NCBI GenBank assembly: GCA_030533445.1
Contig: CM060064.1
Location: 23,283,126 to 23,347,125 of the forward strand
DNA length: 64,000 nucleotides
Source of the DNA: Cyprinodon diabolis
Lineage: Eukaryota; Chordata; Actinopteri; Cyprinodontiformes; Cyprinodontidae
Reading direction: 5' to 3'
How positions within the stretch are numbered: position 1 is the stretch's first letter; each line of letters opens with the position of its first letter. The translations under genes and the position numbers were made by a program. A model generated the notes under the pieces. It saw only the letters and a list, made by a program, of their open reading frames with translations. It was not told where the DNA came from and made no database searches. Shown one piece after another: positions 3,001 to 34,900 of the stretch.

Positions 3001-6000
3001 TCAGTTGATGAAAAGGAAAGCAGATCCCTTTAAGTTTACATATAAAAGATATGGAATTGTATATTTTGGACTTTTTTTTTTTAGTAAAAGTTGTATTAAT
3101 ACAGTAAATTAAATGCTAATACGAGCATTGAAAAAGGAGTAAAAAAAACAACTATATATTTAAACTCACCAACAATAGATACAAAGAAAAAAATAAGATA
3201 AAGTAATAAAATAAAACCAGACACATGAGTCGCTGGTATTTCTAGCAAAATAAAAACTTTACTGACTTGTTGTTCTATTTAAAGCCTACATGTTCACTAC
3301 TAGAGCGTGAAGTTCGCTCTGCTCTGAAAACGCTCCCTGTGGAATAAGGTGGCTGGGAGACGCTGCAGCACCGCCTCTCCATGGGGAGCATGCACTGATT
3401 TTACATCCAGTAAAACCAGAGGGACGGGGCATATCACAAACGATAAACACGTGATAACATAGCACACACCAGCTAACTAAAGATTAGCAAAACTCATCCT
3501 AATAAGCTCTTGAAACAGTGACTGAATGTTGGGGTCTGGCTGCAACCCAGCTTTACTTATCTTGTCTTGGCCTTGGTGCTCCATTTCTCCTGTCTGTTAT
3601 ATCAATTGTGCTAACACTGAATGGCGTGACAGAAAACAAGGCTTATTGGACTTATTCTGTGTTTTTTTTTCTTTTCTTCAGTTGATAAAATTTTCTCCCT
3701 GATATCTCAGAAGCACCTAGGAACAAAATTACAGCTCCTTGCATCGACTTATATAGTGTTTAACCTTAAATAATAGGATAAATATATCATCTTTTTTTTT
3801 TATCTATGTGGCTAAAAGGGAATTTGGACCATTAGCAATTTATCAAGATGGGCAGCGACTTACCAGTGATGGACCAACCTATTACCATTGATTTCTGTGT
3901 AAAATATTACCCAATTTAAATGTGGCAACTGTTTCAAGTTTCTTGAATTTAGGTGCTGATACTTTTAAGATTGAAGCTACAGTAAGACAAAAGTTATTAA
4001 ATGCTTGAACTCTTTCAAACCTTACTTCAAAAATGCCAAACATCGCTTACAATTCAGCTTGTGTTTTTTTTGTTTGTTTGTTTGAACTGTTTAAAGTGTT
4101 TTCATATCTTTATATTTTATTTCTTTTGCAGATATTTCCTGTGTCTTCAGCTTAGGAAGGACATCATGCTTGGGGTTCTTCCTTGTTCTTTTGTCACGCT
4201 GTCCCTGCTGGGCTCCTACACGGCCCAGTCAGAGCTAGGAGAATATGACCCGGAGCTCCATGGGACTGATTATGTTAAAGATCTAAACCTGGCACCAGGG
4301 CAGACCAAGGAGCTGGAGGAAAAAGTAATGGAGCTGCACCGAACATACAGGTCATTAAAGAGTTAGAGACAATCATTTAAAGGAATAGAGCTTTGTTAGC
4401 AAATACTTTTCATTACACTTATTAGGTACCGGTAGGTTTATTGTTTCTCAGCCCAACAGGGAACATCTTTGTTTTAACCTTCAGATGAATCTTTGAAAAT
4501 ACTTTTTTCCTCCCTTGCATATTAAGGTCAATGAGTCCAGCCCAAGCAGATTTGCTGTTTCTGGAAAATGCCAAGAAACTTGCGATGTATGGAGTTGATC
4601 TGCACCAAGCCAAGGTAAAAAAAATTTTTTTCAAATAAGAAAAAAAAAGCTTTCCTTTTTGTTGTAATGTTCTCATTTTTATGTAATGTCTTCCTTTTTC
4701 AAAATGCTTGATAATACTTTGCAACAGCCATCATGTTTTTCATCATTAAGCTTTAATGACAAAATCGATGTCAAGTCCCTTGGAGATAAAAAATTTAAGG
4801 ATTATAACATTTCAAACCATGTGACCTCAGACTAAATGAATGAGGAAAGAAAGACTTCCCCCTTGTGACAGTTTTGCGTAAGTACCAGGAGATAACATTG
4901 TTTTTTTTTTTTCTTGCATGCAGGATCTGGATGGTGTTGACATCACACTAGGTGTTTGCTCCAGTGGTTTGATGGTTTACAAGGACAAGCTGAGGATCAA
5001 CCGTTTCCCGTGGCCCAAAGTGCTCAAAATCTCTTACAAACGAAGCAGCTTCTTCATTAAAATCAGAGCTTCAGAGGTATATCCATTCTCACCCATTATT
5101 TGACAATTAAAACTAGACTGGGCGTCCTACTGATGACTGTTGTTGTTTGATGGATGGGCTGCTACCAGTTATTTTATTTTGTTCTTTTTTTTCTTCCTGT
5201 GCAGCAAGAGCAGTATGAGAGCACCATTGGCTTCAAGCTTCCCAACTACAAAGCCTCAAAGAAGCTTTGGAAAGTTTGCGTTGAGCATCATACTTTCTTC
5301 AGGTAAAAAAAAAAAAAGAACTTTACTTACTCTGATGGGAACCTTTTTTCCTCAGAACAAAAGATAATAAGCAGCTTTACTTTATCCTCTAATTGATTGC
5401 AGGCTAAGTGAAAACTGCAGGTTAATAATTGTTACATCTGCAGTGGAAAAGCTGCAGACTTATCTTCCTACTCTATGCATTAGACTTCTAAGGTTTTTGG
5501 TATCTCAATAAATAATAAAAATGTTCAACTCCTTTATAGATACATCACACACAGTGTGGTGTATTTCAATGGTTTATTTCCATATTTAGTGTATCAGAGA
5601 ATTTATTGTAAGACTAATCAAAAAAAGGATTTCAATAGATAAATGTGATATTATGGTTTACACAACTGTGGTAAACAGCTGAGTTTATAGTTCTCCAATT
5701 AACTATAAATGGAAGCCTCCACAAGGATGGCAATAACTGGCTTTTTACAAGATTCTGCATCAAAACATATGAACTCAAATTTTACTTCATTAACGTCTGA
5801 CATTGCTTAGTGATGCATTTTTATTATTTTAGTTCTGAATTTCCTTAGTTTGAGTAATAAAGAACTGAAAGAACAATGTCTCTCCTTCTCAGGGTTCCTT
5901 CCGTGGAGCCTCCATCCTCCCGCCGTTTTCTTGTCCTGGGTTCCAAGTTCAGGTATAGCGGCCGTACTCAAGCCCAAACCCGACAGGCCAGCTCCATGAT

Positions 6001-6065
6001 CGACCGGCCAGCCCCTCGCTTCACACGCTCTGCCAGCAAGAGGTTGTCACGTAACTTAGACGGTG
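76..6065 (+). CDS. epb41: epb41 exons: headpiece end, FERM domain and FERM-adjacent region
   Basis: Eight exons. Exon 76-351 starts with a Lys/Glu-rich stretch and then [12 protein letters not shown], the usual start of the 30-kDa FERM domain, where an internal start Met gives the short isoform. FERM lobes continue through 453-557 ([17 protein letters not shown]), 645-763, 4132-4350 ([11 protein letters not shown]), 4527-4614, 4924-5076 ([20 protein letters not shown]) and 5205-5302 (VEHHTFFR). The FERM-adjacent exon 5893-6065 has [20 protein letters not shown] and ends in phase 1 at LDGG. Junction phases are 0,0,2,2,0,0,2,1 and all donors and acceptors are GT/AG. The 101-bp intron at 352-452 is very short, while intron 764-4131 is long and holds a foldback transposon. 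All FERM motifs look intact, so this part should be functional. Confidence 0.95.
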
Positions 6066-9000
6066 GTAAGGGAAACTGTGTGTCTGAAATAGTTTTGTTG
6101 CTACAAGGGTTGAGAAGCAGCTGTCTGACTTGTTTCGCTTCTGCAGCTGGAGATCAGACTCTCCAGTTTCTGCAGCTACTCTCTGCATCATGCAGGTCTG
6201 AGGTTGATGATTGGTCTTTGTTGATGGCAGCAGAAATGTCCCGGCCCTCTGCTGAATTTGCAGGTATCGGGATGTGCATGAAGTGCATAAGCTGCTGGTT
6301 TAGTGCTAAATGCTTTCGCCCTAATAACTTATCGATATGCAAACCGGTTATCATTTGTTTTTACTTTCATATTTTTTTTAAACACAGCTTTTCAGCTTGG
6401 TAACTATTTATATTTTGACTTACTCTAACTTGACTCCTGGCTGTTTTTGGCTGCTTTGCACTGTTAAATGAACATGAGCTTCTTCTCTTACCTCGGTTCT
6501 CAGTCATATCCAGTGTTGGAGTTTCTCTTCCCCATTTTTAAGGTGGAAAACTGGACCTGATTCTAACTATCACCTTACACTACATTTTAACTGAACAACC
6601 TACTCGTCACTTTTGCACCGGTTTTTATTAATAAAGGTTGTTCAAAGAAATTTTATTTGCCACCCTGCATTTTTTAAAGAAGATAAACGAGCCATTTCAT
6701 CTTGCTGGCACTAACCTCATCATATCGGCTTGCAATAGTCCTACAGTGGGATAAAACTGCTTGCATCCAACTAAGTTAAAAACCTGCTTGAAGCATCTGT
6801 AACAGTCGTAACATTCTGAACCATAACGTAACTTCAATCGCCTCGCCATCTCTTCACAGCCAGAGGGGAGTCTGAGCAGACTTCCACTCAGTCCTCAGAG
6901 GAAGGACAGCTTGTTCATTCAGTCACAATATCCCGGAATGCCACTGAGACCACAGACGGCAGCGCTCAAATCATTGGTGAACAGCAGGGAATAAAGGAAG
7001 GAGAGTGGTTTGACCTTCTGTATCGGGAACCTTCTGTAGCAGCTGTCCAGAATTTTGATTTTGTGAAACAGCCAGGTATCTGCAATTATACAGCCAACAC
7101 TTTTTCTACATTTTTATCTTGTAATGTTTAAAAACATTGTATCTGTTTTAAGCGTAAAACTTGTGGTTTATTTATGTATGGGTAACTATTCGATTCCCAC
7201 AGATACACTGCGCATAAATACTGTTTTGCAAATACTGAACAGGAAAATAGCTTAATTATAGCACTTATTAGAACTTTGGAGTTGTCATTATGTGTTTACC
7301 CTTCTTTATTATTTGTTTTCTTCAATATTTGTGTTAACTTAATAATTAATCATGTCCATAGTAATCAGTCAACATGACTTTTAGGAGTTCATTGTTTTTA
7401 TTTCCTAGAATACTTATAGAAAGTTATTTATTTACCTCATTTCTGTATTTGGGAAAAGTGCTTGCTTGCCTTGGTTGCATTCATCTTTGTTTCTTTCTGC
7501 GTGCAGGATGCACTTGGATCCTATCATTGGTCATCTTTGTCAGGCAAATCGTTCAATAACAAAAATGTTTTATAAATGGTCTACTTCTAAAGTTTTCAAA
7601 ATTCAACAGCTCCAAATTTCCAACAATTGCCCCTAACGACCCCCCATTCAGAGGCATGGCCCAGGTATTGCAGGCTAACAAAGAATCCAAAATGACTCCC
7701 CATTACTAATGGGCAGACCCTTTTTTTCTGGTTCACTTTGCATGTTTTCTAAGCCAAAACAAGTTTTTGGCTTAGATTCTTCTAACTCTATGCTACTTCT
7801 GACATTTTGAATTGAAAGCTTCCTGTATGGGAAGTGAAACGTCTTCAAACATGGAAGCAAAGTCCAGTGGATTTTTTTTGGAATTACTATCACCTGGATG
7901 ACTGAGAATCTTCACCAGCATATTCAAAATACTTTGGATGGAAATTTATACTTGAATTTAATTAGTTAAAGCTTAAATGTTGGAGAGGTTTTATTTGAAA
8001 AAGAAATGAGGAAAAAGGATTTTAATAATTTAGATTTTGTGTAATGATTCAAAAAGAGTCAACAGATGGAAAAAATATAAAGTACCTTCCAGTTGCCTTG
8101 ATAGGATGAAATGTATTTATCCAACTCTACATGCAAACATCTGAAGATTGTGGATTTTGGTTCTCTGGTTCAAAGATGTACATAATTTCTCTGATGTCAG
8201 TCAAACCCAGCTTGGCGTCCTCCTCCTCCTCGGACCGCCTTTATCAACCTGCACCATCACAGCAGGACGACTGGTTCCTGTACTTCGACCGATTCTTATC
8301 CAAGTTTGAAGAAAAGACTCTGTGTGAGTTGTTTTGGGGATTTGTGACTTTTTTAATTTTAAACCTGCTCAGTAAAACTGACCAGCAGCCTGCCTTATGA
8401 TCCAGATTATTGTTCCTATTTAAAGTTTGACGTTAGCTGTATCTTTGTGCTCTTCTCAGCATCTCGTAAAACTCAGCCTCAGATCTTTGTGGAGGAGCTT
8501 GTCACATCAGTAGACAAACAGGAAGACACTACCGAACAAGTCATTGAAAGACTGCAGAGATCTGTGGTCTTAATAGATGCACTGGCAGAGATGGAAGATC
8601 TGGAAGAGAAGCTGAAGAAAGTGAGGGACTTGGAGGAAAGACTTGAAGAAACAGGGGAGATGACAGAGAAGATTCTGAGGATGGTTGAAGAAGATCTGGG
8701 GCAGGAAGAGGTGGAAAGGTTAAAGGCGGAAGAGGGTGATTTGGATCAGGTGGTATTAGACAAATATGTGAAGAGGCTGGAGACCATAGACGATGATGAG
8801 GATGAACTGGGAGAGCAGATCAGGCAGGTTTTTTTCAAAGGTTTGATCCCAGTAGAGGAAAACGAGCTGAATCAATTAGACGATAGTTTGAAGGAAAAGC
8901 TGCAGAAGATGGAAAGGGAATGGCTGGAAGAAGTACAGGAAACATTTGACGCTGCAGGAGTTTCTGGAGCAACTTCTGTTGTGACTCTGAAGATGGTTGA

Positions 9001-12000
9001 ACACAGGGGCGAGAAGACGGTGACTGTTATTGGTGAGGGGGAGAAGTCAGATGGGAATTTAGAACAATTGACTCAGAGGGAGGTTATAGAGATGCCTGAT
9101 TATGGGAATCCACTTCAGAGGGCAAATGACGATGAGTGGTACCTGCTTTTTTACCGTCCTCCAACCCAAGTAATAGCCAGCCCATCAGGTACAGTATGCT
9201 GCTCTATAAACTATATGGCACTTCTACTAATCGTTCTAATATGCTAACCGTTTTACGTGAGATAAAAGTGATGTGGCAAATATGAATAACACATTGACCA
9301 ACTAGTTCAGTTCATTGAATAACTTTGTGCTTGCTGCTGCCGTGCTCCCTGCGGATGAGATCACCTCGCATTTGGACTTTACTGCTTTTGAAAACGCTTT
9401 TACAGCCTGTGGCACACATTACCACCCATGTTAAGTCTTTATTTCTTTTTTTTTGCTATTACCCTTATAATCAATCTCTACTGTAGATGAGAGTAAATAT
9501 TTGAGTTCAGTGGAGAAGAGACAGGTAGGAGAAGAGGAAATTCAGGAACTGCAACGACCGACGCTGATGGAAAAGGTGGATGACTGGTTTATGTTGTTGG
9601 CTGGTATTCCAAGAGAAAGCCCCTACATAGAACCAGGTAATGCTTAATAAAGGTTGTACTGTTTTCGTGCTTCTGCTTTGTAATCTACTTGCTGGCTGAT
9701 TAAATGTGTGAACTGCCGCTGATTGAGGAAATCTTCTCCTGGTTCCTTTTATCAGTAACCATTAAGGAGGCCCAGGTTGATAAAGAAAGGGTCGTCTCTG
9801 TGGTTGAAGTTTCAGAAGATTACAAAGTTGAGGAGAGGCTGGTAATACAACAGGCTCCCCAAAGCAATAAAGAAATCCAACCAGTGACTCAGAGGGATGT
9901 TGATAGGTTTGTGTCGCTGGATGTTCCTTCTAAACAAACTGAAAATGTACAACCAGGTATTGGAAAACATTCGCACTGACTGGCAGTTTAAGTGCAGCAA
10001 ATTGTTCATTATACAGGCAGGAAAGACTGAAGTTTTTTTCTTTTTGCTTTTGGTGTTGTTGGAGTGAGTCTAGCAGGGGGTGTTTCCCAGTCCCAGATTG
10101 AAGCTGTCCCAGCTGTTGATCTGAGAGAAAAAAGAATGGAGATTTTTGTAGAGGATGCAGAAATAAAACAAATTCCAAGACAAACTGAAGATGACTGGTT
10201 TGTGCTGTTTGACCTTCCAGATAGGGGATCATCTTTTATGCAAACAGGTATTACTAATATTTCTTTCCCTTTTTATGTATTCATTTTTCTTGACTTGTTG
10301 TTTTATTTAGAAATCCTGTTGTTCAACTTGCAGTTCCATTTGTCGATTCAGGATTTGCTTTAAAAAGTGAAATATTGAAACGGCACTGAAATATTTAACT
10401 TCTATCAGTGGGCGGCCATTAATCAATTAAAGAAATAGAGCCTGAGATGCTGAAGCTTAACAAATGGGGTGTGACATTCTAATTTAACTGGCAGTATGTC
10501 TTCGACTTTTTTTGTTTTATCCATAGCTTCAAAAGCTGAGTATGTTCAGGTTCTTCATAGAGAAAGCATGCCAACCATGCCTGTGACTGAGTTAGAGGAG
10601 AGGAGGGAGGTTATAGTTGAAGAGATCTCGATTCAGAAACACACAAAGAAGCTTCCAGAACAGACAATATTGCATCCAGTGAGCAACCGAGATGATGATT
10701 GGTATCTGCTGCTGGACACAATTCCCAAAGTGAGGCCTTATATACCTCCAGGTAACTTTGTCCTTTAGATGCCTTTTTTAATGAAATTACTACAATACGT
10801 GTGATAGGAGTTGAGAAATTTAAATTTTTCAATTTAAATTTACATTTTTTCCAGTTTTAGTGCCACAAACATCTAAAGCCATTCCAAGTGTTTCAGGTGA
10901 AGCAAAAATTGTAGAGCAGAGGTCATCATATCCGATTAGCCCACAGCCTTTGCAGCCTCTAGAAAAAGATGACTGGGCCATTGTGTTTGAGACGCCAGTT
11001 ATTGTGCCTACAGGTACAAGATCATTGTATTTTAATCTTTTAAATTTCTCCGCTTTTTTGACGCAATTGTAACGCAACCATTTGGACATTTTGTGTGTGC
11101 CAGTTGCCGCTGCTGAGACTATGATGTTTAAAGAGACAAAGACGTTTAAAGTCGAGGCAAAAACCACAGAGATTACATCGTACAAGGAAGCGAGAACCAC
11201 TGAGATTAGAGCAGAAGAGGAGGTGATAATTGGCACGGCCAGCAGACAAGATGGTACTCGTTCTTCTGAAATAAGGCCAAGCCGACCTCCAACTCTATCA
11301 AACCTAGAAGATGATTGGCTTGACCTGTTTGACATTGCTCAAGAGAAACGCATACTCTCTCCACCAGGTATTTTTAATTAGCTTAAGGCAGTGTGTACTC
11401 TGTGCTATTTGCTTAAAGTTTTTGAATACTAATTTTTCTATGTCAGTTGCTGCGGTTCGGAGGGTTGAAATACTGGTACCCAGTGAACCAAAACCAAAAG
11501 CCGTCATGGAGGATTTAAGGGGACCTGCTGTGACTTTAGTCAGCCGGCCACAACCAAAATCTGTGAATGATGATTGGTTTGAACTGCTTCATGCAGCAAA
11601 AGAACCAGGTACTCTGCTGTTTGTATTTCCGTGTCCTTATGAGCCAGAATCCCTCCTGATGGGGTGTGTTGTTTGCTCCACAAGTGAGCTGATACTTGGT
11701 GCTTACTGTAAGGTTATGGGTTATAGAAGTCTACGTTTCTGTTTCTAGACTGTATAAACTTGGCCAATTTGTTACTATTTTTTGTCTTAACTATCTTAGT
11801 GCTGCTCCAACTGGTTTAACATGTGGCTGTTGCAGTAAAAACATTTTTATCGGCTGAAACAGTAGATTCTGGTACACAGCTTCTTAACTCGTACAGGAAT
11901 TCATCACCATAGCTCGACATTCAGGAATAAACAGAACTCCGTCAGATATATGGCACACAGTACATGTGCATTTACAGATAGGAAGAAAAAGTTACAGAGG

Positions 12001-15000
12001 AATAGTTTGTGTACTTTTTATCATAGTTTTTCCTTTTGATTGTGTGTCAGTGGCTGTGAAGCAACAGGACCTCCTTGTTCCTGAAGTCAGAGAGGCTAAA
12101 ACCTTTGTAGTCCCAGAGCAAAGAAAACAGCAGAGGGTTTCTATAGTGGATGAGAAGTGGCAGCAAAAAGAAGCATTGAAGGAACGTCCACTGCAAAAAA
12201 AAGTGGAAGATGATTGGTTTGTTCTTCTGGATCGCACTCCAAAGACATCAGGTACACCATGAATTAGAGCTTCAGCTAAATATTGCTTGTTTATATTCTT
12301 CTTGGCGTGAAGTTGTTAATGTCAAACCTAACAGTTTTATGGTGATATGAAGGCCCTGAAGGCTATCGATGCTCTGTAGTTCTTCGCCACAATAACGCCC
12401 GGTCTTATATCTATATCAGTCGCTGCTCCTGGACGACGCAGGCTCCCATCAGAGGTCAGAGCTCCCGCTCCTGTGGCCACAACAAGGACTGAAATTCCTA
12501 AAAAGCCACAATTTGAGATGCGGATCCTGGAAGAAAGGCAGCCTCTCATGCAAACACTTGTCACTGATGATTGGTTTGTCCTGCTAGATTCTGATGCCAA
12601 AAAGTCAGGTACTTTTACTGTTTAGTGTGGAGTGCTTTTTTTTTTTTAAGGCTACTTTATGGGTTTTTCAGCTTCATAAAAACATACTAATTTGCTACCT
12701 GGATACACTGGCTGATGCACAGGTGTCTGCTCACATATTAATAATGGACAGTTTTTGCTGGTTGACGAAATAATGCTTAAAAGACGTTTGAATACCTCGT
12801 CATCAATACGTCTGAAATTGGACTTAACTGCTTTTTTGCGCTCTTTGTATTATTTCGATTGAAAGATGCTGCCTCATTATTCCACCTCAAGGATGTCTGC
12901 TTCTTGCTTACTTTTCATTCTTTTATGAGCTTTAAAAACAAAAGCACTAAAAAACCCATCAGGTACAGTATACGCCTGCTGTATTTTTATCTACCTAATT
13001 ACAGGGGGACCTAATGCAGTAAGTATGGTTGATTACTGTTTCAGTTGGCCTTATAAATGCTGAATGAAGAGTTCAAATATCTTAATTATTAAATGTTGGC
13101 TTTAGAATTTCAAACACATTTTCTTATTCTAACAATTTTTTTTTTTTTGTAGTTGTGAGCTCACAGAGGGGCACACGTCCGGTCAGCGCTCCAGTCTTCT
13201 CCCAGGCTGCCCTGGCAGAGGCAGGGATCCCAATGGCCCCCTTGGACCAGCCCCAGACCTCCACCCCCATAAAGACCAGCCGCCTGGAAGAGAGGAAATT
13301 GGAGGTCACAGTGGAAGCAGCAGAGCCTTCAAAAATGGAGGATTTGTCTGAGGTCAAGGTATTAAGCTCTTTTATCTACCCTATATTTCCATATGGGATG
13401 GAAAATGAAGAATGTGTGTAACATGCTTGTGACATCTGTAGTAAAGATCAGATCAAAACTAAAAAAATGAATCATTTTTTATATCTCAGTAGCATATATC
13501 AGGCTGAAATGTAAAAAATAAAAACTTTGATTTGATTACCTTTGTAATATATGTATTTAGTGGGGGGTGTTCACTGTTTGAGAACTGCACAGTGTCCATA
13601 GAAACCATCAGTAGCTATCTAAGAGAGTGAAGCCAGAAAAGAAAAAAAAAACATGTTATGCCATCACAAATCTAAATATAATCTAAAGAGTGTTTCTAAA
13701 GAAGAATAGCAAAACAAAGAAAATACAAAGTTCTGCTTTAATGGGAAAAGATGGATGTAAAAACCCACTAAAACCAGGTAATAACTGATGTTGAGTCAAA
13801 ATCATGTACTTTAGTTTTCTAATATTTAGTATTTTTAGATGCAAAATCATGACGTCATCATAAAATATGTGTTCAAAGGTTTTTAGTCCTCCTTTAACAG
13901 GGGTTCCAATTGATTAGTGTCTGTATTTGTATGTCAGCTAATAGTTTTTTGCAGTTTGGGGGAAGATTTTATCTAAGATCTGCCTTAGCTGTGGTATCTT
14001 GTTGTTAGCGATACAGAAAGAGAACTTGGTGACTTTCTCAGTGTCTGAGAGTAAACTGTGTGTCTTGCTGCTGTAGCCAGCAGCATGGCGGGAGCAGAGG
14101 GAGGGTGACTCTTCACTGATATCCACCATCAATGGGGACATTCAGGTTAGTGGAGGACACAGGCCTCTAACAGGTTTTAATGAGTGCAACCAACAGAGGG
14201 TGCTAACAGGTCTTCCTCTCTTCTCCCCCCCTCCCCGGGGTAGCATGAGTCTAGGACCGAGAAGACAAGCGTGGAGGGGGTGCAAATGCGAAAGGTCAGA
14301 CTCTCGGTGCTGTACTTTTCTCCACTTCTGATTTTTCCATGTAAAAGAACTAACGCAACCCTCTTCCCATGTTGTGCCTCCATACGTCAAATTTAACACT
14401 CGGCAGATTTTTCAGCAGAGAGATAATGTTTATATTGAATGGTAAAAGAAATGCAGTTCTGTACAGAGTCTGTAAGAATCTGGTTTAAACTATTCTAGAT
14501 CCTGTCCTATTTATTCACTATGCTTTCCTCAGCTAAGTAGAAGTTTAAATTTGCTTGCTGTCATAAACTTTCGAATGCACACATGCATGATCTTAGACTA
14601 ACTGGTGTTTTTTTTTGTTCTTATTTTCACAATATAAGTCCTTCTTCATTACTAGTTTAGTACAGTTTTGGTCACTGCACCAGATTGTTTTGCATGCTCG
14701 TCTCTTGTATTACTGAACTCTATTCTATGCATGTCCAGCGCGTGGCGGCGCAATGCCAGCGCACAGGAAAGCTAAAAAAACCCACACTTTTTTTTTCCTT
14801 TTCATTCTTCACAGAAAAAAGCTAAGAAAATTGAGGGTGACTCAATTTATATCAGACATAGCCTGTTAATGCTGGAGGTTTGTATCTGTTTCAGAGCTCT
14901 CAAGCTGCGTTTTTCTTGCTCTTTGGCAAACGGGCTGCTGTTGCTGCTGCTGTTAATCTCACGCTTGCATGTGCTATGATTCACAGTAATTCTTGCATCG

Positions 15001-18000
15001 GCGATAGATGACTGTCATTGTGTGAAAAATTTACTTGGTTAAGTCAGGAGAGTGCTGCTGAACTTTAAAACAACAATAACAATCCTAAATCAGTGATTCC
15101 TTTGCTGTCGATAGTCATTGTTAGCCAGACTTTTAAGTAAAACAAGAACTTTTAAAGTGTTTTTAGGTGAAAGCACTATGAAATCAGCTTACACCACAAA
15201 TAAAGTTAAAATCAGGTATTCACATGACATAATACATCACCGAGTGAGAGAATGATCTCTTCTGATTAACATACACTGAGACCACCATGCCTTTTAACAA
15301 TTTGGTTATAGCCAGCAAAGTATGTCTCTGCATTCTAAGTTTCCAGAGGTTTAATTTACACTAATGAGCTAAAAAGATGATAGCTTCAAGTACCTTCCTT
15401 GCTGATGTACTTGAAGGCAACACTTTTAAACAAGCTGAAACACCAAGAAGAAAACTGTGGAGCACCACATTAGTCTCTATCAGAGTAAATACCATCACAG
15501 TATCTGATCACATCATTCAGAAAGCAGTGTTTTTTTGCCAGACATGAACATCAGCCGTATAACGAACTATATAGCATGTCAAAAGAAGCCGTTTTCCCAA
15601 AAAAAACAAAAAAAAAAACAAGAAATTGCCAGATTCCTGTATGCATATGGACTATGCCAGGGGTCCCCAAACTTTTTCCTGTGAGGGCCGCATAACTTTT
15701 CCCTTCTCTGATGGGGGGCCGGGGTCAGTTTGTAACAGAAAAATTGTGACGATTGCAAGAGGGCCTAAATTTATGGCGGGATTTATGTCTTTATGACAGG
15801 AGTCATAGTGTCTCCGCAGGTTATATTGTTTGAATACCGCCACCGCATCTTGACAGACGAGACAGACTTTATATTGAACAAAAAAAATTATCGTTTGTCC
15901 AATTCAGGTTTAATGCCCTGCATTCTGAATCAATCTTTCTCTTACCTTTTCTTTTCGCAATTATTCTGTTCGCTCTTTACGGAAGAGAATTAGGGCCATT
16001 CAAAAGAAAAAAAAAACTATTCAATTCTGACTTTTCTTTCTTAATTAAAGTCAAAATTCTGACTTTTTCTTCAGAATTCTGAGAAAAAAAGTCAGAATTG
16101 AATAGACTATTATTTTTATTTTTTTAATGGCCCTAATTCTCTTCTGTATCTCTTTGAGAAGGGCGGGTTTAAGATTTTATGTTGGGGGTTGCCAGATAGG
16201 GGCACAGACCCTAAAAGGGTGGAACTTGTCGCGTTATGTGTATGAAATAGTTACTAATAGTTAATAATAAAAAAAACTTCATAATTAAGGAACATTTTAT
16301 TGCAACTGTCCAACTTTAATATCAAAAACAAACAAAAAAAACACTTATATGAAAATACTGTCTGGTATTGTTCAGGGGGCCGGACCAAGTGTGGAGGTGG
16401 GCCGGATCTGGCCCGCGGGCCGTAGTTTGGGGACCACTGGACTACGCCATTAATACCATAAGATTTTGGCCCATATCCTGCGGTCTGATGAAAGGATCCT
16501 TGAAGTGTTAGCTATGATGGGCATGGTTAAGTTTGAATTAAATAGGGGGGAACCATAGAAGTTTGATAACAGCATCCCCACTGGAGTACGGCGGTGGCAG
16601 CATTATGCTATGGGGGTGGTTTTCTTGAGAATGAACTGGTTATCTTCACAAAATAGGCGGAACCTGAGAATTAATCATGATTGAAATATTAGAGAAACCT
16701 CCTAAGATAGCTTTCTGGTACATACAGTCTTCCAGTTGATAAATGCCCGAAATCATGTTGTCAGATTTGTTATGTATTGGCTTAACAACAAAGAAATTTA
16801 TGTAAGAGTGGTCATCACAAAACTTTTTTAGTCGAATAGAAAATAGATGTGGGCAGAGCTGAAAAGATGCGTTTGCAAGGCAACCTACAAACCAGGTCTG
16901 TCAGACGGAATGGGTCTAAATTCCTGTAAATTATTATGAGAAGTTTGAGAAGAGACAAACACTAAGATCACCCCAATCATTGAGCTTCAAGGGAATTCTG
17001 ACAAGAAACGGTGGAAATGAATCTGTAACAACACACAAATCCTGTAATTTGTGACGCATTTTTTTTCAAGTAGACCTATTTTGATGTTCTTAAAATATTA
17101 CCTTTTTCATTTAATACATAAAACATAAAGTTAATATTTTATTGATAGTACTGTTAGGGAAATCAGTGCCTGCCTACAATATCTCCGATTGGAGCATCTT
17201 TAGTTTATAGTTGCCCCCTTTGTTTTTTCCAGAAACAGACTTAATCTTGTTCATCAGTATTCTCCTGCTTCTGCTTCTGCTCATTGTCACAGTAATTACC
17301 TTAAATGCACTGAAGTTTTGCAGCAGTAATAAGTAAAAGTCTTTGCCTGTAAAAACAAAAAACCATATAACTAAAGGTCTTTGCTGTGTGATGTGTAGCC
17401 ACAGTATAGTCTGAGAAACACAGCTTTAAAGCTCCAAATTTGGTTCTAATAAATAGCCTGCAGTTGGTTTTGCAACATGACTGCCACCATCTCTTGTTTT
17501 TAATCTCAACTTGCTGCCAAATGTTGCTAAATCAGCACTTCTTCTGTCACATCAGTTCATTTCATCCAATGAACGTGTTTCCTTCTCTGTCAAGGCTTTG
17601 TTTCAGTCATCTCAACCATGTCTGCTGTCAATACCCCTGCTGCCCATTGATTTGTGGCCTGTTTACTGATTCTTTCTATTGCAATTCTAATGCTGTGGAA
17701 TTAAAACCCCTTATTGATCGTTTTGTGGCTTGTTTGAATCTAATAGTCAGTCAGCTGCCAGACTTCATTTGAAGCCTGAAAAAGCACTGCTGATGATCTG
17801 CTTTGAAAAAGTGGCGCATTTGTTCTTTTGTGAAGAAGTACAAACATCTGGATTGATTTCTTCTAATTTTTCCCCTGCAGAATTACATGTTAACTCTGCT
17901 TCTGCTTATTAATGAAATCAGCAAGAAATGATTTCCAGATTGAGCAATAGAGCACAGAATAATGTAATGGTTTCCTTTCTTTCTTTCTTTTATTCCTGCT

Positions 18001-21000
18001 GTCCCGCTCTGCCCTACATCTCTCATCACCGTTGTCCATTGTTTACATCCTTTACCCTTGTTCCACAACACCTCGTCCCTCTCCGCTCGACTTTTACCTC
18101 ACTCACGTAGGAGTTCGATAAGCCTCAGGAGGACCTGCTCCGGCACCACGCCAGCATCAGTGAGCTGAAGAGGAACTTCATGGAGGCTGTGCCAGAGCCG
18201 CGGCAGAGTGAATGGGACAAGCGCCTGTCCACGCACTCCCCGTTCCGCACCCTGGGCATCAATGGCCAGCCGCTGCCCAGTACAGACGGGGTAAGTTCAG
18301 AAGATCTCTTTTGCATCCAAACAGATCTAGGGGTTCAGGAATTAGAGGGACATGTCATTAAGTCACATATTACATATATATCTTTATCTTGTTGTAAATG
18401 TGACCTAAGATTTTTCCTTTTCTGGTAAATCTGCTGACTTAGTAAATAAATTTTGGAGGGACTTTGTCTCCTCCTGCTGCTCTTTATTGTCTTCATGTTG
18501 AACTCTGTGCACAGTGTATGCATGTAGTTTCTGATTAAACTGATGGCACGTATTAAGGAGCACATGCATGTGTATGAAGGATGCGGTTGGACCGGGTGAA
18601 CCAAGCATGTTGCTTTACTTCCTCTACTATTCAGACAAACAGCTTCTGTTGGTCAGGTCATTTGCTCTCCGAGAACCTGGCCCTGGGTTTATCTGCACTG
18701 GATGTGTCTGAATTCCTGACATGTTTGTGTTGCATGACTGACAGACCTGACTTGGAAAACAATACTGCATGACTACAAGTTAAGCAGGTTTCTACCAGGC
18801 GTGCACGTTCTGACTCAGAGCAGTTTCTCCTTTTCTCCTCTCTTCTCTGTTCCTCCTTCATTGCTCTCTGATTGCTTCTAATCCCCTTTCTTTGCTTTCA
18901 CTTTTGTTTGGCTGATGCTTTTGATTAAAAAACAAAGTTTCATCCACTAATGCATCTAAACTTGCTGTACTTTTCAGAAGTATTCACATAAGTAATCATG
19001 TGATTACAAAGTTTATTTTATTTACCAGGATTTAGTCTATATATAAAACTCGAGGTTTACTGTAGAAACACGTGAGGCTAAAGAAAAACATATCCACCTG
19101 TAACCGAATAGTTTGTGTCCGTACCTTAACCCAATTAAATCTATGGAAAAAGCTTTTTAACCTTTCAAACTGAGCTCAAGCTATTTTACTCGGAAAAATT
19201 GTGATATTTCAGTTTGTGGCGAAAACAAAGATTTGCAGCGGCAAGAGCATTTTTATCTCTGTGTCTTCCCGGTAAAATCAAATACCAATAAAATACAACA
19301 GAGACTATGTTTTTAATCTATGGGTTAAAGGGTTACTTTCTCATCAAAATGCGGTTCGGTTGTACAAACATCAGTGAGGAAATGAAACAGAACCCAAGCA
19401 GAAAGGGCTTAAACTCAGCAATCATCATGTCCCATTTCCTGACACAGGTTGCTGCTGGTTTTATAAATTAGTTTATCGTTCTGTTAACCCTTTTATGTTA
19501 AATATTGTTATCCGTAAGAGATGAAAAAAGGGGGCTATAAGTAGAGTTGTGCTGATTCCATTTTTTGGAATCAATACCCATACCTGATACCTGGCTGTGC
19601 AGTATCGACACCATCTAATTGAAATTGATGTGTGTGTGTATATATGAAGAACTGCATACTACTAGGATGTAAAATAATTGCCATCATTGCTTTGTCAAGC
19701 TGCTGCCTACCTTTGTGAAACAGGAACAAAAAGACTAATACAAAGTGAATCCAGTAGAACATTTTATTGCCTAACTGGAATGTGTGACAACAGTTGAATA
19801 AAATTTTGGCTCTCAAAATGGTATCGGTGACCTATTTGTTGGTACTCGCTGATACCAATACCACCATTTTAGTGCTGGATTGGGGCCCCGCCTGATACTG
19901 GTATTGCTATCGGTGCAAGACTAGTTATAAGCTGACTAGATCCTATCGACCATGGAAGCATAACCCTGTGCTTAAATGGGTAGTTAACCTAAGTCAACCT
20001 GCAGTACCGTAAATCCTCTAATTTATGACCGAAATTGCGGAAAAGAACTTGTTAAGTTTTACCAGCTAGAAGAGCGAAGTATGCGAGAACGCTGGGACCC
20101 TTTTTCCACCTGGATCTCTGCTATTTTTCGCTTTCATGTCCCTCCCTTGTCGGACTACTCACCCCCACTTCCTCACCGCCTCGGCCGTATCTAGACCCGC
20201 AATGTATAGCACAGACTACGCTTCAATATCAAGCATAAATTAAAATTGTCTGCGTCAAGCTCACTGCGACACACTGCTGCAGGAGTATAACCAGCCACAC
20301 AATCGTTCTGATCTGAAAGACAAATGTGATTACCGGTAGGTCGGGTGGTAACCAGGCAGCGTTTAAATTACAGAATTTTGTTGGCCTTCGTTGTTCTGAA
20401 TTTCCCTTGAAATATATACTTTACTTTTTCAATAAATGAAACTAGTATTTTATAGGTTCAAAGAGACACAAAATCTCGTTTTTATTCATTCTACTGGTAG
20501 TCTGTTTTGATCAAATAGAAATAGAGGCCTGCCTCTAATTCTGGCTTCCTTCCAATAATGGCCTGGACCACGATGTGCCTGAGTGAAATGAAGGCCCTGT
20601 CCTATATTAGAGGATTTACGGTATTAGATTTATTCTGGGTGTCGTTGAATTTAAAATTTCATTTTAATTGTATAAAAAGATGCAGTTAAAGTGGATCACT
20701 TTGTCATTTCAGATTCAAAGCTATTCATTGGACATGGAAATCAAGGAGTGCATGTTAAAATGCATGTGGTGCTAAAATTTCCATGCTCTAGGATAACAAT
20801 GAAATTTTAACTTTTGTTGAAGTAAAGCTTTTATTATTTAAATAGTAAGAGATTGCATAATGCTAGCAGTTTAAAATCAGTCATATCAGACTCTTCAAAA
20901 TTCCTCCCTCTCATCTCTCTTCCTCCCTCCTCCTCCTCCCCCTCTCAGTTTGTCATCCGCCTCCCACGCGGCCCTCTCCTAGACTTCTACTCCAAACGCA

Positions 21001-24000
21001 GTTGAAGGGGGGGGGGGGGTCTTCTCAACGCTTTGGACTTCCTGCACAAAGGTGTGAATGTGACGTACGAAGGCCGCGCCCATCAGCCCATCACTCTCTA
21101 GCTTTCCTCTCTGTTCCTCTCTTCCTTCTGCAAACACCACTCCAGCGCTCTTCATCTCCCATCCTCTTCTCCAAAAGACTGTAAAGACTTTAATTCTTTC
21201 TATTTCCTGAGGTTGAACAATCGTCTGGTGTTTTTCCAGCCAGAAACGGACCTCATCTCTAAAGACTAAACGCTGGAATTGTTTAACATTTTCTGTGATG
21301 AAATTTAATGATAACTACAGCTGGTAATCATCTTAAATTTTTTTATGTCTGACCGGATCACTTGAAGCCCATTTTATACACGTTTGGGTGCGTTTCTGTC
21401 TTCACTAGTTCTTAGGATTCTGTCTTTGGATAAACAAATCACTGTGACTTTTTTCTGAACACACAAGAAGAACAAATTTAAATGAGTTGTTTTGGGGATT
21501 TTATCTATGCTCTTCCTTACAATGTAGTATTTCCTGTAGTAGGAAACCTCGAGGCGGCTCAGTTGTAATACAGTTCTTTACCTTCACAATAAGAGAGTAC
21601 TTGTTGCATGATGTTTTGACAATCAACTTAGACCAAGGAATAAAAAGGCATTCCATAACCAGCTCAGTCTTTTTATTTTTTTTTTATGTGTATTGAGTGG
21701 GATTTTATTGTGAAATTGTCATGTGCTAAAATTGATGTTTAAGTGCATGGTTGTCTTGGCGGTTTTTATGTTTGGAGTTTGTAATAACTGCAGTTTTTCA
21801 ATCTTATTAAAACATTTAACTAAAACAGCTTGATCACCGTGCCTCAGACGGGAGGAAAAGAAAGGACAAATTAGATATGAAACAAAATAAAAACAAATAA
21901 AGAAACTTAAAGTTTCTTTATTTGTTCTTGGCTAAGATCTGTTCAAGACTCGTGCTCTCTTTAAATCAAAACCCAAAGAAAAAGATAGAAGCGGCCATTC
22001 AAATATAACGTGCAGTGTTGAGAGGTTAGCCATTTACATTACCTCTGATAGGCCAGCTATTGCAGTTAAGATGCTGATTCAATTAAACCCAATGAGGCCT
22101 TTTAGAAATGATTAATCGACTATTAATACAATTCAAAACATGAACAGGAAGGACCATATTAGGGCTTTGGAAGTGCCGACAGTCTATCACATTTGAAGAC
22201 CCTGTTGATATACTGATATAAACCATCTCAATGAGATAAAGTAACTATAATGACCTTAAGTCAACCTATAAAACTATAAAACACTTATGTTTAAATAAAT
22301 GTTGTAGTCCCTTGCTATGTCGGAATACGAAATCCAAAAGAAATGAAATATATATTTAACTAAGTTTAAAGTCCTCCTAATGAAATGGCCATTGTACGTC
22401 TGTCTGTGCAGTAAAACAACTTAAAGCAAAGTCTTTACAATCTCCTATTTTGGTGCTAAGCTAACCAGCAGCCCTAACTGTGTTCTTAAGAAAGCAGCTG
22501 ACAAGACATCACCTCGATTACCCTCTTAATATAAATAACGTTGATAAAAACACGGCCATTTCCTTCCGATGAGGATTTTGTACATGCAATTTGCTAAAAC
22601 GTTAGCAGGCCTTGTTTCCACTCCTTGGTATTTCATCTTGATATATTTTTGTACAGCTCCAGTTAAAGACAATAGCTTACAGGAAAAATGTTTTTCTGTT
22701 TTATAAACATGGTATGCTACTTGAACATTGTTCAGCACCATGATAAGCATGTTAGCTATGGTCACGTCATACCATCAGGGAGGAAAGTATAGCAGCCAGT
22801 CTTTTTACCTCTGAAGGTCTTTGCAGAAGTAGAAACACAGTTTGCTGCAATAACTCAGAAATTATCAAACAACCTGTAATACAGAGAAATGCTTGGTTTC
22901 CTAGGGATGCGACCAACACAATGGACCGGTAGTTGGATTTAGCAGGGATTAAATTAGGGCTGAAACAATTAATCAGGTTAATCATAATTAATTTGATTAT
23001 TGAAATAGTCAACAACTAATTTAGTAATCGATTCATCTTTAACTGTAGTATAGAGAGTGTAAAACATGCCTTTAGCTGACAGAGTGACCCACTTAGAGCA
23101 GTAAATATATCAAAATTGTACAAAAAAAATATATAAACATCTTGCATTTAAGATAAAAGAAAATAAAGAAAAAACTTTTCTGTCAATATGCTCTATAAAG
23201 AACTCCTCAATCAGGAAAAGTCTAAGATTCACCTGGTTTTATTTGTCAAAAAGGAATGTTTGGCTATCTGGTTATTAATTGATTAATCGAAAAATCATTT
23301 GCCTGATTAATCGATTTGCAAAATAATCACTAGTTGTAGCACTAGATTAAATATTCATATTTATAGTAGATAAATGGCAAAAGGCATTACATTATTTGAA
23401 AAAGCTTTTGAATTTATGCATTTTCAATGTTTTAAAGCTGTAATTTTCCCAGAAGAAAGTAAAAACCTCTGCTGTTCAAAACTCCTTATAATTGTTTTGC
23501 ACATTAAGCAATGAACGTTGTTTGTAGGGGTACATTTTGGAGGCATCTAATAGATCAGAGTGATATTCACAGAGGAAATACATGTTCTGTAAATCTAGGT
23601 TAACCAGTCATGAAGTTTGGCAAGTTCCTGAATCATGAAATACATGGGTAGATAGTGGTTTGTGCAATCAATCGTTGAAACGCATAATTTTTGGTTGAAA
23701 AAGCAATTAAGATCAGATAATTTCTGTTTACATCCTACATTCTGATATCTTTAGTAGACAGAAAAGGCATTCAAACTTGTCTATGATTCATGTAAATGTC
23801 ATTTGTTACCACAACACTTTGTCTCCTTATGATCATAGTGACCGTGTTTGTCTTTTTTTAGAGTGTGTGCATTAGTCCCTCTTGCACATGTTCAGAAACA
23901 AAAACTCATCATGAGGAAACCAGCAGTAATTTGGGGATCTCTGAGGTATTAGGTCCCTCTGAGAGCAATCAGAGAGAGCCTGCTGGTGTGGAAGCCTGCG

Positions 24001-31918: not shown

Positions 31919-34900
31919 CTAGCGAATAACCTTTGCTGGGCTTTTGAAACTTGATGCCGTCTGAAGCTGCAGTTGATAAGCCATGGGGTGAATTTTGAAA
32001 CCATACAGCCTGAAGAAAGAGAAATTAGATCCCGGTCCATACGAAAGAGAAAAGACCTGCTTAAAACAAAAGTGAGCAAACCTTGGTACGAACTGGCTGG
32101 CTGGTCGCTTCGGTCGATACTCTGGGTTCACCATGAACAACATATGAGGAAATCCTGTGCCGAAGTAGGCTCCATCTGTATGATGGTGTCTGGATGATCT
32201 GGGGCTGTACACGTCCATACACTTTGGACAGTAAAGCTTCACCATTGATTCTCCAGGGATGTCTGATAAGCCTAGATTAGAAATAAAATATTTAGAAAGG
32301 TTTGACGATGGTGAATTAAGGGAAAAACAGTCAGCCTTACCAATAGGAAGCATTGGCTGGTTCTCGCAATTTACCCTGGGACAGCAGCCAAAGTCCCCTT
32401 GCTGATATTTTTCCAGCTAAAAAGAGAAAAAAAGATGAAGATAAATGGTGACGATTGATTTAAACAAACTCATGCTCCTTTTACATAATACAGCAGTTAC
32501 CATTTGTGCAATGCCTCTGTTTGTGAGAATGTAGCGTGCATGTATAAGACCATAGAGCATCTCAGCTGCCTGCTCAGTCAAACCGCTCTCATTCGGATTG
32601 TCTTCAGTTTCCTCATCTGTTACAGAAAAGTCATTTAGAAATTTAAAATTGTTTTTTTCCCACCCATTTATGACCGAAAGCAACACCACCTTATAACCTT
32701 ACCTGCCTCCAGGTCGAGGATCAAATCCAAAGCCTGACGGAAATGAGGCACCTGCTCACTCAGACCCGTAAGGTTGAACCTATCCTGAATGTAATCTTCA
32801 TCTATCTGAAATACAACAACAAAGGATCGTTAAGAGGCTGATAACAGCTGCAGGTAATGTTGCTGCAGCAGAAGCAAAACACTGTAGTTGAGTGAAGTTC
32901 AAATATGATATTGTTTGACGTTTTTAGAATATAAGAATTGATCAGAAAGGACTCTGAATTATTTTTCAAGAACTGTATTAGTAGACATTAGCAGTAGGTT
33001 GAAGCAAAAGGTTGAAGATTTTAAAGTCATAACATGTCTATAACCAAACTAAACAAGAAGGTGTACTAATCTGACAAAATTCGTTTACATAAGCCTGTCT
33101 CTGCTTGTATGTTTTATTTCCATTTTCCACTTTGTCATGCATTAAAAACATGATTTATGAGACAATTACATATATACAGGAACAGAATCGGTACACAAAA
33201 TAAGAGCCTTTTTACTTTGGTCTATATAAGAGGCCAGAAACATTTTCTATTCACAGACACACCTATGCTCTCCTGCCACAAAAACATTTTAAAGTGTGTG
33301 CTGAATTACTTTTATATGAAAGGTGTGGAAATAAACTGAAAATCAATTTAACATCCAGACTTGTGGATAATCTAAATTTTACAAAGAGAACAAAATATTT
33401 AGTAGAATGAGGTCAATCCAGTGAGCCTTTTCTATAAATATGAAAATTGACGATAAATAGGTTAACCATTTAAACATGTAGAGCACATGGTTGGAGGTAA
33501 ATTAAACATCACAAACACTTTCTGCCATTTGTTGAAAATCTTCTATGCAGATATTGCATAATAAAGGAAAACAATGTAACCTAATTCCACTTAGAAATAT
33601 TCCTTATTGTACTTTGATGGTGACTTAGCTGTGAATTAAAACAGTTCTACTTTGGTTCTGTCAGAGCTACCATTGCCCTGGACCTGCAGGTTACTATAGT
33701 AACCGGTTTCCATCATTCTCATGACAAAAAATAAGGTAGTCAATTAATGACTATTAGGTAATATTTCATTATTATGAGAAAGTATCTTATACTTATGAAA
33801 TAGTACCATAATTTCCTCTTTTTTTCTGGGGCTTATTTTTGTGCTTTCCAATGGTAACAAAACCTATAAAAAATAAACTAGAACCACCACAAGTGACAGT
33901 AGCTGAATTAAAAAACCTTTTAAAGTTACTGTCGGATTTTCTTGTTTTTTTTTTTTTTTTAACTTAAAGGAATAGTACACCCAAAACATGATTAGCCTTC
34001 ATTTTCTACTCACCCCCATGCTGAACAACACTCTGGAGTACTTTTTTGATATCTCAAATGCATCTGGAGATCTGGGAGGCTTCTTGCTGTCTGCTGACAT
34101 TCAAATAATGGAGGTCTATGGCGCCTGAGGCAGAAAGGTCGATAAAAGTCCACAAAAAACGTGTCAATATTCCTCCATACTGCTCGTCCAATGTATTCCA
34201 AGTGTCCTGAGTGGGTAGGGTCCATAATTTACTCGAAACAAAGTCATTTAGAATGTTTTTAGAGCATAAACAGTAGTGTATAGGATTTCCTAAAAGCGGT
34301 TCACGAGTCTACGGAAACCGCGGCAGACCAAACCAGATGAAAGTGCGCATTCAGCTCGGCAAAGAACTCATGCTCTTCCTAAACACTGAAGTCCTCAGAC
34401 ATTTTTCTTTCGTTGTTTCTTTCTTTGCACAGGTAAACAGCACATTTCTTCTTCTACGCTTGCATTATCAAGAGCAGACGCTGAATGCGCACTTTCATCT
34501 GGTTTGGTCTGCCGCAGTTTCCGTAGGCTCGTGAACTCGCAGGCGCGCGCTTTTAGGAAATCCTATACACTACTGTTTATGCTCTAATAACATTCTAAAT
34601 GACTTTGTTTCGAGTAAATTATGGACGCTACCAACTCAGGACACTTGGAATACATTGGACGAGCAGTATGGAGGAATATTGAGACGTTTTTTGTGGACTT
34701 TTATGGACCTTTCTGCCTCGGGCACCATAGACCTCCATTATTTGAATGTCAGCAGACAGCAAGAAGCCTCCCAGATCTCCAGATGCATTTGAGATATCAA
34801 AAAAGTACTCCAGAGTGTTTTTCAGCATGGGGGTGAGTAGAAAATGAAGGCTAATCATGTTTTGGGTGTACTATTCCTTTAAATAGAATGATGGTTGATT

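Follow-up and report, generated by a model that had tools for sequence, protein, structure and literature searches.

What would a run of thirteen extra exons be doing in the gene for protein 4.1, a textbook membrane-skeleton protein? The window examined here, a stretch of 64,000 nucleotides of Cyprinodon diabolis (assembly GCA_030533445.1, contig CM060064.1, positions 23,283,126 to 23,347,125, forward strand), holds most of an EPB41 gene on its plus strand (76-26895). Thirteen exons at 6147-12608 form an array between the exon for the FERM-adjacent domain (FA, 5893-6065) and an exon that we name RPVSAP (13153-13358), and nearly all of them encode a copy of one short acidic-tryptophan motif. 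We consider the array to be a real, functional-looking and little-annotated teleost elaboration of a classic protein, for which docking is a likely mechanism. The reading that we prefer, with a probability of roughly 0.6, is that the array makes a disordered, splice-adjustable, multivalent docking tail on teleost protein 4.1b. Zebrafish epb41b mutants serve as models of 4.1 deficiency.

Thirteen symmetric exons in a protein 4.1 gene

The gene model was built from 30 exons (8 upstream of the array, 13 in the array and 9 downstream) which join into one frame of 1,688 residues with a single terminal stop; the exons have AG/GT borders and the last one closes with the stop. A Pfam scan of this protein confirmed that the gene is a protein 4.1 gene, as had been proposed from the letters alone, since every expected domain was found: FERM_N (E = 7.3e-20), FERM_M (1e-21), FERM_C (1.9e-29), FA (7.1e-18), the spectrin-actin-binding domain SAB (2.9e-26) and the C-terminal domain CTD (7.9e-15). 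Between FA and SAB no Pfam family was matched at E ≤ 1.

The array exons sum to 2,910 bp, or 970 codons. All their lengths are multiples of three, all are of phase 1-1 and all are bordered by AG and GT, so the earlier description of 13 symmetric exons with intact frames holds, as does that of an acidic-acidic or glycine-acidic core followed by tryptophan in 12 of them: [D/G][D/E]W occurs in 12 of the 13, about 13-25 residues upstream of the exon end. The exception is exon 6 (9756-9956), whose frame is intact and whose tryptophan is gone (VDRFVSLD). Because its guppy counterpart (record P0052, aligned by eye) reads DDWFALLD, this loss looks derived.

Mammalian protein 4.1R (80 and 135 kDa forms) has the same order of FERM, FA, SAB and CTD, an internal in-frame ATG (MQCKV) and alternative exons around SAB, according to a 2024 review, which gives mammalian EPB41 21 coding exons and four domains (PMC10887211). 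In contrast to it, the window protein has 970 extra residues between FA and SAB and a shortened CTD. The latter covers positions 5-80 of the 107 of the PF05902 profile, above the curated cut-off, and ends in GGASAL; it is shortened also in two other spiny-rayed fish that were scanned, and the full profile (1-107 of 107) is kept in an eel record (P0161).

It is plausible to ask whether a short motif stands out from chance at all. We assembled a motif profile from 598 copies in 51 proteins of fish outside the pupfish order, after removal of 46 SAB-type copies. These copies were picked by the pattern [DEGNS][DE]W, and so their acidic and tryptophan positions are conserved by construction; beyond that core, leucine or phenylalanine stands at +4 in 556 copies and aspartate or glutamate at +5 in 482. 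When the profile was run against the six frames of the window, the top 11 matches were 11 of the 13 array exons, nine at E < 0.01 and two at 0.13 and 0.19, while the next match had E = 5.9; exons 6 and 9 were missed. No match at E < 0.01 appeared in 20 first-order Markov shuffles of the window.

Conservation, origin and distribution among fishes

The sequence-only reading had claimed that the motif is conserved while the linkers have diverged, and at the protein level this was found to be correct. Over 54 species (one hand-picked protein each, compared with the window; 51 proteins were chosen in the same way for the motif profile and 69 for the motif counts below), mean identity to the window was 0.712 for motif residues, which make up 104 of the 970 array residues, and 0.445 for linkers, and when the motif mask was shifted circularly, the observed value was never reached. 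Motif identity exceeded that of the linker in 12 of 13 exons and equalled it in exon 1. Substitutions falling in the motif numbered 1 of 30 in Cyprinodon variegatus (a conservative D to E), 18 of 324 in Xiphophorus couchianus and 20 of 330 in Fundulus heteroclitus. The whole array is 96-97% identical at full length in C. variegatus (97%, the 30 substitutions just given) and C. tularosa (33 substitutions); absence of the frames from closely related fish had been named as what would speak against the array, and the frames are present in the relatives that we found.

Could these open frames nevertheless be accidental, or part of a gene that is non-coding or decaying? The lost motif of exon 6 and the inconsistent database names ('titin homolog', 'uncharacterized') might point that way. 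Against this stand the 13 frames, all open and in phase, the many teleost orthologs, the conservation specific to the motif and a sequence of spliced length described below, and we thus regard mis-annotation as very improbable.

As for the origin of the array, a contig of 3,987 bases (P0136) contains five tandem units, each consisting of the motif exon together with its translated intron, 102-103 codons apart. Neighbouring units share 44, 69, 82 and 47 of 98 residues in ungapped comparison. These tandem units support duplication of a phase-1 exon along with its intron, and with them the repeated exon duplication that had been proposed from the pattern of the exons.

The first protein search with the array gave 252 proteins at E ≤ 1, and the best 120 of these 252 were all named as fish proteins, under labels such as 'titin homolog', 'uncharacterized' and 'Protein 4.1'. 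The queries were then shortened to keep long, closely related proteins from filling the list (candidates of 440-1400 amino acids in one search and 522-1660 in the other, with at most about 7,990 candidates scored). The first of these searches returned 57 matches at E ≤ 10, 55 of them with names, and the second 40 matches, 39 with names; every name was that of a fish. In this way the array was found also in smelt, salmonids, zebrafish and other cyprinids, catfish, electric eel, shad, eels and bonefish. The arowana match was weak (E = 0.023), its two motifs being recognised by eye. No tetrapod, gar, shark or other non-teleost name occurred among the matches listed, where a single motif would score too low to appear, and absence of the array outside teleosts is therefore provisional. 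The result agrees with the earlier statement that no such array was known in mammalian EPB41, as does the mammalian review, in a comparison made without mammalian FA-SAB sequence.

Motif numbers were counted with a loose pattern in 69 species: 2 in arowana (one record), 6-7 in eels and 9-16 in the other 66, with 10-15 in the spiny-rayed fishes. The loose counts may take in a few matches outside the array, and a stricter pattern gives 12 instead of 16 in shad and 10 instead of 11 in zebrafish. Wherever a match name gives a paralog letter it is always 4.1b and never a; the nearest records to the window carry no letter.

The zebrafish record, 'protein 4.1b', thus has 10 or 11 such motifs depending on the pattern, on strongly divergent linkers, at 28% identity to the query from Myripristis. 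Murata et al. reportedly described, in a 2010 paper cited by PMC3166722, two zebrafish cardiac isoforms of 4.1R whose structures are unique. Zebrafish epb41b is the gene of the merlot/chablis mutants (PMC10245139), which are anaemic (PMC10245139, PMC6765189), and in the accessible parts of the merlot/chablis literature examined its repeats go unmentioned. More broadly, the array is undescribed in the available portions of the literature found on epb41/epb41b, teleost EPB41 exon duplication, merlot/chablis and cardiac isoforms, a search with subscription literature mostly outside its scope. Queries with DDWFVLLD and with protein 4.1R and exon 17b returned nothing in the literature searched.

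A proposed docking tail, its isoforms and its possible partners

We suggest the following scenario. The array would be an elaboration of protein 4.1b (epb41b) in teleosts, lying between the FERM-FA and the spectrin-actin-binding parts, and would have grown from one phase-1 exon by repeated tandem duplication. The result may be a long, mostly disordered tether in which a short docking motif recurs about a dozen times, nearly every exon contributing one copy on a flexible linker. If each copy holds one small partner domain, many partners could be gathered at the membrane skeleton, and skipping of whole exons would lower the number of sites with the frame unbroken. That the motifs bind in trans, that their valency matters and who the partner is are points which we infer; our best guess for the partner would be the Atg8 family, on the GABARAP side. 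The LF-acidic repeats of FAM21, and similar tails, likewise repeat an acidic-aromatic peptide many times along a disordered chain, with another motif and in another gene.

Two AlphaFold2 models fit a disordered chain of short motifs. For record P0127 (40 sequences) the mean predicted local distance difference test score was 38.5; helices were confined to the part that resembles exon 4, the RPVSAP exon and SAB, and the 7 motif copies located had neither helix nor strand. In the model of P0109, made from 38 sequences and containing four motif exons, the FERM domain was built, exon 4 came out as a helix of about 100 residues, and confidence was about 26-31 around all four motifs. On both models we rejected the idea of a confident motif helix. 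The helix predicted for exon 4 could be a coiled-coil segment and might dimerise.

Evidence for an expressed tail comes from the same record, P0127, a 1,085-codon frame in a contig of 3,750 bases, which extends from sequence resembling exon 4, by way of later array exons, RPVSAP and SAB, to the CTD. As the same exons span about 18 kb in the window, it should derive from spliced RNA. Numerous database records connect the array with both FERM and SAB, all of them predictions. Among predicted isoforms of 18 species, array sequence is lost in 10, and eel records display similar losses; clustering at 90% hides isoforms. When 13 array losses were mapped to the window exons, six began and ended no more than 2 residues from exon borders. 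The earlier claim that any subset of exons could be spliced in is thus only partly upheld: array exons are lost in frame in predicted isoforms, while the listed differences between isoforms mostly affect exons other than those of the array, on both sides of SAB.

A number of observations weigh against this picture. Conservation of the linkers (45% identity, 93% alignable) means that they may matter as well. The P0109 model places a helix on the 11 residues just before motif 1 and another on four residues of motif 2, both at very low confidence, and models made from 38-40 sequences are in any case weak evidence for disorder. P0127 stops short of the FERM exons, and a retrocopy origin is possible. 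Eight of the 18 species had no array difference among the isoform records compared; one of the 13 mapped losses starts inside exon 4, and six were not cleanly placeable at one or both ends. All these isoforms are database predictions.

We also considered an alternative promoter for isoforms that lack FERM, given that 18 of 19 records are without the FA string YSGRTQ, and rejected it, as their starts are scattered over unrelated places. For the same reason these records may be partial gene models. Downstream of the array, the residues of a small possible exon after the SAB exon (20949-21005), which would terminate the protein ahead of the CTD, occur in 2 records compared (P0030 and P0112), and an alternative exon of 129 residues between SAB and CTD (23862-24248, SVCISPSC...IRCFQ) is included or dropped in predicted isoforms of several fish.

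Protein 4.1 is a mechanical protein, and the array might instead serve as an entropic spacer or spring between FERM and SAB, with motifs that fold onto their own FERM domain or bind spectrin-actin. Its place between the membrane-binding and the spectrin-actin-binding parts would suit such a role, and so would the helix of exon 4 and the acidic linkers with proline and valine, which recall the acidic, Pro-Val-containing linkers of the titin PEVK region; several records are indeed named titin-like. Nevertheless, a pure spacer needs no tryptophan motif kept amid changing linkers, and the P0109 model, in which FERM and four motifs are present together, has too little confidence around the motifs to show any docking. 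We find the spacer an unlikely explanation. Membership in the titin family was separately rejected, because the Pfam scan of the window protein gave no titin, immunoglobulin or fibronectin-III family at E ≤ 1. Xin repeats contain a tryptophan too, and membership in that family was rejected likewise, with no Xin match at E ≤ 1.

Among the forms that a docking tail could take, a specific one is a scaffold of many LC3/GABARAP-interacting regions (LIRs), by which numerous Atg8 proteins would be tethered to the membrane skeleton. Known LIRs include DDDWTHLSS, DDFWVRVAP and HDDFVMIDF (PMC5538626). In 510 of the 598 motif copies and 11 of the 13 window exons, at least one register fits a core of the type aromatic-X-X-[L/I/V] preceded by acidic residues (G or N allowed at -2); among the remaining tryptophans of these proteins, 162 of 652 fit W-X-X-[L/I/V]. 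Read from the tryptophan, the first register is W-F-V-L; read from the phenylalanine, the second is F-V-L-L-D-V-V-P. The consensus of the latter has an aromatic residue, valine at X1, an acidic X4, a hydrophobic X6 and proline at X7, as in the PCM1-GABARAP complex (PMC6499816). Extended LIRs in general (p62, PCM1, ATG13, ULK1, giant ankyrin-G) share with the array acidic residues, the aromatic-X-X-hydrophobic core, an acidic X4 and a proline near X7. Moreover, giant ankyrin-G, itself a membrane-skeleton protein, has a strong LIR (PMC8727931) and offers a precedent.

An aromatic residue at +1, a hydrophobic one at +4, an acidic one at +5 and proline at +7 to +9 occur jointly in 222 of 598 copies, as against 543 of 200,000 random 20-mers of the same proteins; because the copies are related to each other, this excess reflects conservation of the motif and not LIR function.

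On the other hand, the strict xLIR expression fits only 9 of 598 copies, and the form resembling the GABARAP-interaction motif, in which X1 is V or I, is found in 249 of 598 copies and 2 of 13 window exons. Phenylalanine occupies the gamma position of the second register in 24% of 805 copies. The array protein differs from the extended LIRs in its roughly 12 copies and in its doubled aromatic (WF); either phenylalanine at X1 (first register) or tryptophan at X-1 (second) strikes us as unusual. In the literature listed for 4.1 together with GABARAP, a single review, on ankyrin-G, had all the terms. The likeness is a lead and not a membership, and we hold the multi-LIR form of the docking tail to be a tentative possibility.

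If +4 and +5 are taken into account, the preference for L/F and D/E there exceeds what a plain LIR core needs, and the motif could belong to another peptide-binding class: a short amphipathic helix or linear motif for an endocytic adaptor, a nuclear protein or a muscle protein. The lack of a helix at the seven P0127 copies, with a low-confidence helix of four residues on one of the four in P0109, argues against this reading. A comparison of the motif peptide with solved structures gave E = 0.24 at best, to a designed protein. Such a class seems improbable to us.

Stated in full, the boldest version of the docking tail, in which teleost 4.1b is a splice-tunable multi-LIR scaffold whose dozen or so GABARAP-type motifs, each in its own exon, anchor Atg8-family proteins to the membrane skeleton, is tentative and rather doubtful. 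If it were true, it would link membrane remodelling in red cells or heart muscle to autophagy or receptor trafficking. Even in its general form, a docking tail that is absent from mammals and makes up much of the added length would give fish 4.1 functions unpredicted by the mammalian model, and with each copy in its own removable exon the locus would allow a clean test of how the valency of short motifs evolves.

Feature coordinates and the rest of the window

Table 1. Exons of the EPB41 gene in the window (positions of the window; mean identities over 54 species)
Feature	Coordinates	Strand	Remarks
EPB41 exons before the FA exon	76-351, 453-557, 645-763, 4132-4350, 4527-4614, 4924-5076, 5205-5302	+	FERM_N, FERM_M, FERM_C; in-frame ATG at 298, MQCKV
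FERM-adjacent (FA) exon; next exon starts in phase 1	5893-6065	+	PF08736
Array exon 1	6147-6263	+	motif DDWSLLMA at 6206
Array exon 2	6860-7075	+	motif GEWFDLLY at 7000
Array exon 3	8201-8323	+	motif DDWFLYFD at 8266
Array exon 4, 729 bp	8460-9188	+	long helix predicted in a relative, then motif DEWYLLFY at 9131
Array exon 5	9487-9636	+	motif DDWFMLLA at 9579
Array exon 6	9756-9956	+	decayed motif VDRFVSLD at 9899
Array exon 7	10074-10247	+	motif DDWFVLFD at 10190
Array exon 8	10527-10751	+	motif DDWYLLLD at 10694
Array exon 9	10855-11013	+	motif DDWAIVFE at 10968
Array exon 10	11104-11367	+	motif DDWLDLFD at 11310
Array exon 11	11447-11608	+	motif DDWFELLH at 11569
Array exon 12	12051-12251	+	motif DDWFVLLD at 12209
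Array exon 13	12420-12608	+	motif DDWFVLLD at 12566; mean motif identity 0.97
RPVSAP exon, directly after the array, phase-1 start	13153-13358	+	mean identity 0.85
SAB (spectrin-actin-binding) exon	18111-18290	+	PF04382
C-terminal domain exons	24707-24829, 25035-25151, 25236-25322, 26866-26895 (stop)	+	PF05902, profile 5-80 of 107

An element whose ends are inverted, probably a non-autonomous DNA transposon, is present twice, at 795-1500 and 33966-34855, with a 30-base match at 795/33966 and a reverse match at 1470/34825. Within an EPB41 intron, the stretch at 15660-16440 has GGGGTCCCCAAACT-like inverted ends (read by eye) and resembles a hAT transposon.

The next gene, on the minus strand at 31922-32416, encodes a casein kinase II regulatory (beta) subunit (PF01214, E = 3.2e-30). 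Further on, the region 42515-63793 contains immunoglobulin-domain frames at 42.5-43.3 kb on the plus strand and at 45.9-46.3 kb on the minus strand. On the minus strand there are also a piece of cytochrome P450 at 50.9-51.2 kb, fibronectin-III frames at 60.4-62.1 kb and, at 62.3-63.8 kb, an open frame of 499 codons, rich in Ser, Thr and Lys and without a family match.

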